From: a virus | Length of the DNA stretch: 21,263 nt | Reading direction: 5' to 3' (one strand) | Virus record (IMG/VR): IMGVR_UViG_3300044940_000311 | Coordinates: 1-21,263 of that record | Shown: positions 642 to 4,436 of the stretch, one piece after another | Layout of the letters: the number at the start of each line of letters is the position of its first letter | How positions within the stretch are numbered: position 1 is the first letter of the stretch | The notes under the pieces: model-generated | The model's database searches: none | What the model saw: the letters and a program-made list of their open reading frames with translations, nothing else | What the model was told of the DNA's origin: nothing | Position numbers and translations under genes: made by a program

Positions 642-856
642 GGGGGATGGCACCTGAGCTGCTCGCGATCGGGCTGATCGTGCTCGCGGCCTGGGCCAAC
701 GCGGCCTCGCGCGCTCGCCCGCGCCGATGCGCCGATCAAGCAGCCGATCGAACAGGGGCGATGCCCTGCTCCAATGGCAACACAAGGAGGGACGCGAGGA
801 TGACGAAGAACAAGCTGGCTGATCTCAACGCAAGGCGCAGGGGACGAGCATCATGA
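638..856 (+). CDS. small ORF with hydrophobic N-terminus and an internal strong start
   Basis: This 72-codon frame starts with an ATGA overlap on the rusA stop and ends with an ATGA overlap on the initiator start, so it fits the operon at both ends. Residues 5-20 (ELLAIGLIVLAAWANA) are hydrophobic and could form one membrane segment or signal anchor. The rest is basic and low in pattern. An in-frame ATG at 800 has the best ribosome-binding site in this arm, AAGGAGG at 784-790, and would give only 18 residues, MTKNKLADLNARRRGRAS. From memory, MTKNKLADLN opens a longer small-protein family in alphaproteobacterial phages, so this could be a shortened relic or a leader that couples translation to the initiator. 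Function unknown. The full-length frame could be a chance extension of the short ORF. Confidence 0.5.
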   Translation: MRGMAPELLAIGLIVLAAWANAASRARPRRCADQAADRTGAMPCSNGNTRRDARMTKNKLADLNARRRGRAS

Positions 857-1812
857 GCAGCGAGACAATCGCCTGGGCCAAGGAGCAGGCTTGCGGCAAC
901 CCCGTGACCAAGGCGGTGCTGATGGAAATCGCCAACTGGGCGCGGCCCAATGGGGTGTGCGAATATCTCTCGGTCAAGCGGATTGCCGAGGTGGTCGAGG
1001 TCTCGATCCGCACGGCGCGGCGCCACATCGCGCTGCTCGAGAGCCCGGACGCAACGCGCGGCGGGCTGGGGCTGATCCGCCGGATCGAGCGCTACCGCGA
1101 GAATGGCGGGCAAGATGCCAACTGCTTCGAGCTGGTGGGCTATCAGCCGCCGCTTTCGCTCGGCGCGCGCCCCCGCGGCAACCCGACACCCCCCCCGGTC
1201 AATTTGTCACCCCCCCCGGTCACCGGTGACTGCCCCCCCCGGTCAATTTGTCACCCCCCCCCGGTCACTGGTGACCGGGGAGAAAATATGAATTTAAATA
1301 TACCCCCCTCCTCTCCTGACGGAGAGGAGACCCCCACGCCCGATTTTCCGGATTTACCGGATGAGGCGGGCAGGGATGAACAGCGCACGGCCGAGACCGC
1401 GCTGCCAGACATGCAAGAGGGCGCGGCTGGGGGCAGGGGCGGGCAGGAGCCCAAGCCGGAGGGCTTGCCGGATGCGCCTCCGGAGACGCGCGAACGGGAG
1501 CGCCATTCCGCGCCCGCGCCAGACGATGCGATCACCTTCGACGATTTTGTCGAGGCGTGGAACGAGGTGGCCGAGGCATGCGGGCTGGCCAGGCTGTGCA
1601 AGCCAACCGAGGCACGCAAGCGGGCGTTCCGAGCGCGCCTGCGCGAATATCCTGCAATCGCCGACTGGCAGGCGGCATTCAGGTGCCTGCGGCAGACCAG
1701 GTGGATGCACGGCGACAATCCCAGGGGCTGGCGCGCGGACCCCGATTTTTTCCTGCAGGCCAAATCTTTCACCAAGCTGGTGGAGGGGCAGTATGGCCAA
1801 GCTGACAGGTGA
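853..1812 (+). CDS. phage replication initiator, winged-helix (lambda O-like in role)
   Basis: This 319-residue protein probably recognises the phage origin and recruits the host replication machinery. The N-terminus (about residues 1-97) reads as a winged helix-turn-helix, with LSVKRIAEVVEVSIRTARRH near 39-58 as the helix-turn-helix. A Pro-rich, low-complexity linker (about 110-235) follows and is encoded by DNA repeats described separately. The C-terminal domain (about 225-316) has FDDFVEAWNEVAEACGL and NPRGWRADPDFFLQAKSFTK, a module common at the ends of phage helix-turn-helix replication proteins. An SD-like AGGGGA lies at about 838-843, 9 nt before the ATG, and the start overlaps the previous stop. 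The origin-like repeats inside the gene strongly support the replication role, as lambda O also contains its own ori. No helicase-loader gene like lambda P is seen downstream. Confidence 0.78.
   Translation: MSSETIAWAKEQACGNPVTKAVLMEIANWARPNGVCEYLSVKRIAEVVEVSIRTARRHIALLESPDATRGGLGLIRRIERYRENGGQDANCFELVGYQPPLSLGARPRGNPTPPPVNLSPPPVTGDCPPRSICHPPPVTGDRGENMNLNIPPSSPDGEETPTPDFPDLPDEAGRDEQRTAETALPDMQEGAAGGRGGQEPKPEGLPDAPPETRERERHSAPAPDDAITFDDFVEAWNEVAEACGLARLCKPTEARKRAFRARLREYPAIADWQAAFRCLRQTRWMHGDNPRGWRADPDFFLQAKSFTKLVEGQYGQADR
1189..1276 (+). repeat. four iterons inside the initiator gene (candidate origin)
   Basis: Four tandem units begin at 1189, 1210, 1233 and 1254, so the spacing is 21, 23 and 21 bp, about two helical turns. 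Each is a run of 8 or 9 C followed by GGTCA and a GTCAC or GTGAC end. Units 1 and 3 are identical (C8 then GGTCAATTTGTCAC). Units 2 and 4 carry the palindromic forms GGTCACCGGTGAC and GGTCACTGGTGACC, giving an A-B-A-B order. Because of the 23-bp step, unit 3 is translated in a different frame from unit 1 (PPPVNLS versus CPPRSICH). The repeats are therefore conserved as DNA, as expected for initiator-binding sites. The binding itself is inferred. Confidence 0.8.
1281..1302 (+). other. AT-rich segment next to iterons (candidate DNA unwinding element)
   Basis: Directly after the last iteron come 22 bases, 1281-1302, with only two G and no C. The core is AAAATATG then AATTTAAATATA. The surrounding coding sequence is strongly GC-rich, so this is a sharp local dip. 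Iterons followed by an AT-rich stretch is the layout of the lambda origin inside gene O, where the AT-rich part melts first. It is translated as part of the initiator linker (around ENMNLNI). The role as unwinding element is inferred from position and composition. Confidence 0.65.
1308..1329 (+). other. 9-bp perfect hairpin at the edge of the candidate origin
   Basis: CTCCTCTCC at 1308-1316 is the exact reverse complement of GGAGAGGAG at 1321-1329, with a four-base loop TGAC. It starts six bases after the AT-rich segment. It lies inside the initiator coding region, so it is not a terminator. A stem at this place could be a primase or replisome-loading structure, or could influence initiator mRNA; both ideas are inference. 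Confidence 0.5.
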
Positions 1813-2956: not shown

Positions 2957-2979
2957 GTTTGATTTGATGGCCGTCAAAG

Positions 2980-3080
2980 GCCGCCGGAGGGCCCTAGAAT
3001 TGCGTTTTGCAGAGTTTGGCTAGGTAGAAGCGGCCAAGCGCTCGATGCAATCCTAGGGCTGTTTGCGGGCGGCTGATGGC
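2980..3080 (+). repeat. right direct repeat flanking the methyltransferase
   Basis: This is the partner of the repeat at 2070-2175, lying between the methyltransferase stop and the next gene. It contains arms GCCCTAGAATTGC (2991-3003) and GCAATCCTAGGGC (3047-3059), which match as an inverted repeat at 12 of 13 positions with 43 bases between them. The left copy keeps a weaker form of the same arms (2081-2094 and 2138-2151, 10 of 14). The pair of copies may mark the borders of an inserted cassette. Confidence 0.65.
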
Positions 3081-3771: not shown

Positions 3772-4164
3772 ATGGCTGGTGTTGCAAACCCGCCGCCCGG
3801 GCGTTTGTGTGAGCGCTGCATGGCGAGGCGCCCTCCCAGTCTCAAAATCGGCACGGGCGTGAAACCGGGTGCCCTGCTTGCCACAGCGCGGGGCTGGGCG
3901 GCGAGCCGGCGCGGATCGCGCCACAAGCGCGGCTATGGCTCGGCCTGGGTGAAGCTGAGGGCGCGGGTGCTCGAGCGCGAGCCGCTGTGCCGGATCTGCC
4001 GTGCGGCTGGGCGCGCGGTGATTGCTGCAACGGTCGATCACATCGTGCCCAAGCACCTGGGCGGGACGGATGACGAGAGCAATCTGCAGCCGCTGTGCTG
4101 GCCCTGCCACCGGGCGAAGACGGCGCGCGAGGGACGCAGGGCGCGCGTCGTGACGCCGGACTGA
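3772..4164 (+). CDS. HNH endonuclease, packaging-associated
   Basis: This 130-residue protein has a complete HNH nuclease motif: DH at 89-90, N104 and H113, with zinc-binding cysteine pairs CRIC (73-76) and CWPC (109-112). The segment RHKRGYGSAWVKLRARVLER (50-69) is the usual lead-in of phage HNH proteins. HNH proteins encoded next to terminase, such as HK97 gp74, work with the terminase in cutting cos-type phage genomes, and this gene sits one intergenic gap before terS. Start choice is uncertain: ATG 3772 is used, and ATG 3820 (MARRPPSLK) would still keep the whole nuclease domain. No strong ribosome-binding sequence favours either. A homing endonuclease is unlikely given the packaging context. 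Confidence 0.9.
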   Translation: MAGVANPPPGRLCERCMARRPPSLKIGTGVKPGALLATARGWAASRRGSRHKRGYGSAWVKLRARVLEREPLCRICRAAGRAVIAATVDHIVPKHLGGTDDESNLQPLCWPCHRAKTAREGRRARVVTPD

Positions 4165-4285
4165 TTGGCAGCTCGGCGATGCGGTGCAGCAGTGGCGGCT
4201 TGCATCAGCTCGATTGAACTGCCGCGCCTTGATGGCCACGCGAACCCCAGGGGGCTGTCCAATCTCTGGCAGCGCGCGCCCTGGG

Positions 4286-4436
4286 GACCGGCGCGCGGGT
4301 CAAAAATTTGCGCGGCCAAATAAAAATTTCGGCGCCAATAAAATTTGCGGACGGAATTAAATCTTCGCGATCGGGACCGCCACCGGGGCCTGGACAGGGC
4401 AACAATCATGATCGAATTTCGCCTCGCGAGGGCGTC
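4286..4436 (+). promoter_or_regulatory. candidate cos / terminase-binding region with phased A-tracts
   Basis: The 272-base gap before terS holds a near-palindrome at 4286-4301 (GACCGGCGCGCGGGTC, 14 of 16 bases symmetric), immediately followed by AT-rich units. AAATTT occurs at 4304-4309, 4324-4329 and 4341-4346, with a related AAATCT at 4359-4364, so the spacing is 20, 17 and 18 bases. Each is followed by a GC-rich piece such as GCGCGG, CGGCGCC or GCGGACGG. Nothing else in this GC-rich window has such a pattern outside the origin. In cos phages the packaging site lies just upstream of terS and includes repeated terminase-binding sites. That reading is inferred. A promoter or curved DNA site is possible. 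The part 4165-4285 shows no clear feature. Confidence 0.45.

Follow-up and report, generated by a model that had tools for sequence, protein, structure and literature searches.

A segment of about 150 nucleotides, positions 1189-1335 of the DNA analysed here, lies in the linker of the initiator gene and is very probably the replication origin of the phage, an arrangement known from lambda. This reading comes from comparison of sequences and from analogy with annotated origins. The most novel part of the segment appears to be a conserved, covarying hairpin, whose function we infer. The DNA under study (the window, whose positions are used throughout) comprises the 21,263 bases of an incomplete virus record, and because of this incompleteness further origins may lie elsewhere. 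Relatives of the window's terminase were found in Sphingomonadales and Novosphingobium genomes as well as in viral contigs, and the window is therefore assigned to a sphingomonad phage or prophage.

A reading made from the letters alone (the sequence-only reading) had taken the gene for a winged-helix initiator. This was borne out by a match to Pfam HTH_36 (PF13730; E=3.7e-6, 27.1 bits, above the curated cut-off of 25), by a match of residues 209-314 to PHROG 345, 'replication initiation O-like' (E=1.5e-19), by N-domain matches to PHROGs 391, 4617, 1032 and 8540, and by AlphaFold, whose model of the N-domain (pLDDT 88.9) has helices followed by two wing strands. A Foldseek search with this model returned generic winged-helix proteins only (best E=0.013). 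All putative origin elements lie inside the gene, downstream of the N-domain and upstream of the PHROG 345 domain (Table 1). The gene is preceded by a RusA-like resolvase gene and followed by a short ORF and then a DNA methyltransferase gene. The latter (N6/N4 type, ~2189-2956) is itself flanked by repeats, namely a direct repeat of 51 nt (73% identical, at 2120-2170 and 3029-3079) and an inverted repeat of 37 nt (at 2138-2174 and 2967-3003), as if it were an inserted cassette.

Table 1. Features of the initiator gene and of the putative origin embedded in it (positions in the window)
Feature	Positions	Strand	Remarks
O-like replication initiator gene, 319 aa	853-1812	+	HTH_36 N-domain, putative origin-bearing linker, O-like C-domain
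Winged-helix DNA-binding domain	853-1152	+	AlphaFold N-domain model; putative iteron binding
Iteron 1	1189-1209	+	C8 + GGTCAATTTGTCA
Iteron 2	1210-1230	+	C8 + GGTCACCGGTGAC; inverted half-sites
Iteron 3	1233-1253	+	C8 + GGTCAATTTGTCA; same as iteron 1, other codon frame
Iteron 4	1254-1280	+	C9 + GGTCACTGGTGACCGGGG; 1259-1280 perfect 9-bp palindrome, loop CTGG
AT-rich block, putative DNA unwinding element	1281-1302	+	2 G/C in 22
C6 tract left of hairpin	1303-1308	+	last C within stem; kept in most sphingomonad-phage relatives
Hairpin	1308-1329	+	CTCCTCTCC-TGAC-GGAGAGGAG; perfect 9-bp stem, C-TRRM-G type loop
C5 tract right of hairpin	1331-1335	+	
O-like C-domain (PHROG 345), putative recruitment of helicase machinery	1477-1809	+	PHROG match

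The four iterons reported inside the initiator gene at 21-23 bp spacing are indeed there, their GGTCA anchors at 1197, 1218, 1241 and 1263 being 21, 23 and 22 bp apart. The sequence CCCCGGTCA occurs at 1193, 1214, 1237 and 1259 on the plus strand and at 1272 on the minus strand, against 0.22 occurrences expected from dinucleotide shuffles of the window. The iteron had been described as a C-tract plus GGTCA; the C-tract stands, but the core has to be redrawn, since the tract is followed by GTCAATTTGTCA or GTCACCGGTGAC. Half-sites are inverted in iterons 2 and 4 and imperfect in iterons 1 and 3, and the palindrome of the fourth repeat was absent from the earlier description. The whole array consists of a 44-nt block present twice and contains an exact repeat of 29 nt; none of 2000 synonymous-codon shuffles gave a repeat of at least 29 nt (shuffle maximum 22). 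As 44 is no multiple of 3, the reading frame changes from one copy to the other, giving PPPVNLSPPP and PPRSICHPPP. The four homopolymer runs of 8 or 9 C between 1189 and 1262 lie within coding sequence and are likely mutational hot spots, because any slip would truncate the initiator. The pattern CCCCGGTCANNNNGTCACCCC gave five matches in viral contigs, which were rejected as chance, one of them being an unrelated repeat array in another gene; an unrelated viral contig (L004) has CCCCGGTCACCGCGTCACCCCCTCACCCCGTCACC three times, at 4101-4247, inside another coding sequence.

The segment of 22 bp almost devoid of G and C that was said to follow the iterons was likewise recovered. It is the lowest-GC 22-mer in the entire window, and its AT richness was reached in none of 2000 synonymous shuffles of the initiator gene. 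A GC-skew switch, named by the sequence-only reading as a check, was not seen at the putative origin. Among the 30-mers of the window, AT content is highest at 4317-4346 (8 G/C), just upstream of the terminase genes, where no repeats were found.

Searches with the full-length protein in viral and genome contigs returned no relatives, and homologues were therefore sought via the terminase and then with N- and C-domain alignments. Five complete close homologues were obtained (L040, L050, L051, L052 and L063; N-domain identity 62-72%), and all five carry repeats, AT block and hairpin in this order and at the same place. The outcome that the sequence-only reading had named as a refutation, homologues lacking repeats here, was thus not obtained. 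Their repeats are composed of a C-tract plus TGACA-N-TGTCA dyads, such as CGTGACAATTTGTCACCCCC, which makes GGTCAATTTGTCACCCCC of the window a variant of the same unit. The layout varies little: the array is 87-95 nt long (85 in lambda), starts 295 to 336 nt from the ATG (348 in lambda) and is separated from the hairpin by 26-31 nt (43 in lambda). L051 and L052 agree in 22 of 22 positions of the AT block, compared with identities of 75% in the N-domain, 44% in the following linker and 54% in the C-domain. N-domain type, iteron family, AT block and hairpin are shared by the window with L040, L050-L052 and L063. In sphingomonad prophage initiators such as L040, L018, L051 and others, however, the C-domain ends in DnaA_N (PF11638), whereas that of the window is of the PHROG 345 O-like type. 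In DnaA, the DnaA_N domain contacts DnaB.

Loci reached via the terminase or the C-domain have other winged-helix N-domains, with other repeats at the same place. Tabulation of repeat motif against winged-helix type in 37 genes gave a nearly block-diagonal arrangement. TGACA/TGTCA belongs to types A and E, GGAACAGT to type B (and also to Burkholderia, Acinetobacter and EBPR phages, though not to Edwardsiella EPP-1), GTRTAGC/CACCGGTG to type C, GCACGAMRTGC to type D and CTACCGGCA to type F. Because the motifs were derived from these same sequences, finding them within a type is in part circular, whereas their near-absence outside it is not. Repeat type thus follows the type of DNA-binding domain, and of the evidence at hand this speaks most strongly for recognition of the repeats by the N-domain. 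Nor is the C-tract repeat confined to this phage; it is the form belonging to one winged-helix subtype.

Resemblance to lambda concerns both place and order. In lambda and lambdoid phages (P22 gene 18, HK97, epsilon34) the origin lies in the initiator-gene linker, ~300-350 nt from the ATG, as in the window, and the annotated lambda and P22 origins occupy the same place within their respective initiator genes. Lambda has four dyad-like iterons starting at 39034, 39054, 39078 and 39101, i.e. spaced by 20-24 bp, and in both lambda and the window an AT-rich block lies 3' of an array of 85-95 nt, with an inverted repeat beyond. In lambda the iterons are bound by O, and supercoiled DNA is opened at the AT-rich region (PMC5043065; PMC7466680). 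The window differs by an unrelated iteron sequence, by a gap of 27 instead of 43 nt, and by a hairpin that is perfect and flanked by C-tracts; the lambda inverted repeat, GTCAGAGAATTC-TGGC-GAATCCTCTGAC, is imperfect (28 bp, 11 of 12 pairs) and may be regarded as its weaker counterpart. The proposal of a lambda-like origin with an unrelated iteron inside the initiator gene is therefore supported by order and geometry in the homologues and by the matching of repeat and domain types. The lambda logic holds for the architecture, and the hairpin is not an addition to it: an inverted repeat occupies this position in lambda, where it is imperfect, and in many phages, where it is perfect.

The initiator had also been assigned to a different family than lambda O. 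This is correct at the Pfam level, where lambda O matches Phage_rep_O (PF04492; E=5.7e-36) while the window protein has no match to it at E<=1 and matches HTH_36 instead. At the level of PHROGs, O-like families link both proteins: lambda O also matches phrog_345 and phrog_391, although largely in other parts of the profiles than the window protein. We thus appear to be dealing with a lambda-type embedded origin in an HTH_36, not a Phage_rep_O, initiator. Iteron plasmid origins (RK2, F, P1, R6K) similarly combine a winged-helix initiator with an iteron array beside an AT-rich unwinding region (PMC5043065). The plasmid origins covered by that paper rely on mostly direct repeats and on DnaA boxes, in contrast to the dyad-like array embedded in a gene found here. 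The literature covered, which took in few subscription papers and none of the lambda origin papers of 1977-1979, supplied background on origins of the lambda and P22 type, but neither this hairpin nor this iteron was described in it. Already in those early papers the lambda inverted repeat had reportedly been noted.

The perfect 9-bp hairpin announced beyond the AT segment was confirmed. Taken alone it proves little, because a hairpin equally long is present in 172 of 2000 whole-gene synonymous shuffles (a local test gave p ~0.02); its weight comes from covariation among relatives. By C-TRRM-G origin hairpin we mean a stem of at least 7 pairs, closed by C-G over a TRRM loop and immediately 3' of the AT block; the window hairpin (9 pairs, C-TGAC-G) belongs to this class. 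The hairpin is retained in initiators of different winged-helix types, where changes in one arm are compensated in the other. In a gapless alignment of twelve hairpins, 99.1% of the cells are paired, changes on both sides are seen in 8 of the 9 pairs, and the covariation score is 1.07, against 0.22 after shuffling. In a set of 23 sequences, which includes PAJU2, a Mannheimia phage, HK97 and P22, 95.2% of the cells are paired, the closing C-G and the first T of the loop are invariant, and the covariation score is 1.00 (0.21 shuffled, at most 0.23 slid). The six inner pairs of these 23 hairpins are Watson-Crick in 136 of 138 cells, with no G-U at all. Local synonymous-codon tests, gene by gene, gave p between 0.003 and 0.27; summed as log10 over 25 genes, which are not independent of one another, these values reach -42.7. 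Loops are TGAC, TAAC, TAAA, TAGC or TGAA, so that the bottom strand has mostly GTCA or GTTA. Both would belong to the cGNNAg type, which is known in stable DNA hairpins.

Among known phages the same hairpin type is found in P22 (CCCCC-TAAA-GGGGG), HK97 (CCCCC-TAAC-GGGGG), PAJU2 (ACAACTCC-TAAC-GGAGTTGT) and Mannheimia 535AP2 (GAATTTAC-TAAC-GTAAATTC), and hairpins with other loops in D3-like PMG1, PSA04, epsilon34 and mEp043. In the scan of phage initiators it was not visible in Aggregatibacter S1249, the EBPR podovirus and Acinetobacter MD-2021a; Bcep176, Vibrio H20, EPP-1 and Yen21.09 were undecided. Since it is weak or absent in some related initiators (L049 and L056, and those of S1249, the EBPR podovirus and MD-2021a), the hairpin is not strictly required in all. 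It is thus widespread, though not universal.

The aligned sequences had been picked as initiators with a hairpin at that place, and a blind search therefore matters more. For this we used R1, a 38-nt covariance model built from the first twelve hairpins, which gives the window hairpin a score of 50.5 bits and, across 772 kb of loci, matches at this place only. Three overlapping draws of 299, 80 and 348 genomes were searched, with a limited number of candidates scored per genome, so that the outcome is uninformative on frequency. Nine new genomic sites were obtained, apart from a match (L125) identical to a training sequence. Seven of the nine lie in winged-helix initiators, after repeats (L071 and L126-L131), two of these initiators (L128 and L129) being of a further winged-helix type. 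Another (L132) falls in a DUF1376 protein of primosomal PHROGs, and an intergenic one (L133) is probably due to chance. A C-domain of PHROG 345 type is present in L126 and L130 too, both genes having the same hairpin type. Both C-domain types, the DnaA_N-ending one and PHROG 345, thus occur with the same hairpin, which makes it unlikely that the hairpin is tied to either. The site in L132 (~1501-1538, reverse strand) reads CATCAGAATC-TAAC-GATTCTGATG and is located in coding sequence, with no obvious iterons just upstream; the hairpin may accordingly reach beyond winged-helix O-like genes. The exact hairpin pattern together with its C-tracts had no match in viral contigs.

By analogy with lambda, the following course of events may be proposed. 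The winged-helix N-domain would bind the four C-tract/GTCA iterons (1189-1280), the AT block (1281-1302) would open on supercoiled DNA, and the replicative helicase machinery would be recruited to the separated strands by the C-domain. On its far side the AT block is bordered by the hairpin, which most likely acts as DNA by folding on the opened strand or strands, and could hold or mark the limit of melting, the place of action of helicase or primase. A role as DNA is favoured by the lack of G-U pairs and by the place adjoining the AT block. We further suggest, tentatively and aware that it may well prove otherwise, that phages of alpha- and gammaproteobacteria share the hairpin as a portable origin part whose structure is conserved. 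Its stem letters would be free to change while pairing, closing C-G and TRRM loop are kept, and iterons, DNA-binding domain and C-domain would be exchanged around it; it might be read by a common host factor (primase or helicase?) or act physically, as a single-strand hairpin, at the melted edge.

For the hairpin alone, the main rival is a role as transcript RNA (terminator, pause or translation control) unrelated to the origin, which we consider unlikely without dismissing it. Read as RNA, TGAC and TAAC are UNAC-type tetraloops. Transcription through the region is moreover what activates the lambda origin (PMC5043065). An intrinsic terminator was rejected, as neither strand has a T-run after the hairpin: ACCCCC follows on the plus strand, GGGGG and then TATATTTAAATT on the minus strand. 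RNA stems usually tolerate some G-U, but none is found in the inner pairs of the 23 sequences; Rfam has no match to the hairpin, which folds equally well as DNA on either strand (bottom -9.8, top -9.3 kcal/mol) and always adjoins the AT block.

As to the array, the repeats might be operators through which the initiator represses its own operon, with replication starting elsewhere. Autoregulation is common among winged-helix proteins, and the N-domain of this protein could plausibly bind the repeats. We nevertheless regard this as improbable, because the array lies ~340 nt inside the gene, which is no promoter position, because AT block and hairpin always follow it, and because its geometry agrees with the annotated lambda and P22 origins. 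An initiator bound at the origin could also regulate. That the G-runs of the minus strand form a G-quadruplex controlling replication or transcription is more improbable still: there are four runs of 8-9 G between 1189 and 1262, but the loops between them, of 13-15 nt, are long for a quadruplex, and in relatives with the same dyads the G/C runs are shorter or gone, and they are absent from the other repeat types. This inconstancy of the C-runs speaks equally against the least probable explanation, by which the array is a low-complexity proline-rich linker, or a recent product of C-tract slippage, with no role as DNA. The array is indeed proline-rich, its C8 and C9 tracts are prone to slippage and its 44-nt halves may be a recent duplication. 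The two copies, however, stand in different frames, so that no protein repeat is kept, homologues retain DNA dyads of different sequence at the same place, and AT block and hairpin would be left unexplained. An embedded origin is thus the reading that we prefer.

Origins of most environmental phages are unmapped, and the combination of iterons matching the winged-helix type, AT block and covarying hairpin offers a way of finding them from sequence alone; in bacterial genomes, the 38-nt model led blind to initiator genes. The many subtypes over which repeat type and domain type pair constitute a ready set for studying how initiator specificity changes. The hairpin would point to a step at the origin that follows melting, a step to which no element is assigned in the lambda papers covered.

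Three closely similar initiators carry unequal numbers of GCACGAAATGC-type repeats, namely two in L095 and at least 4-5 in L096 and L100, and arrays therefore expand or contract; iteron number is four in lambda and six in Stx phages (PMC7466680). In the initiators of L053 (4339-4530), L054 and L055, palindromes of the form CTACCGGCA-N-TGCCGGTAG precede a block less rich in AT and a long stem of the GCGCGCG-AAGG-CGCGCG type; this stem, at the position of the hairpin, forms a separate class. Further embedded repeat types are present in the initiators of L056 (1830-1940, GGTGAACCCAGTTCACC) and L057 (300-400, AAGCGCGCAAAACGCGCGG).
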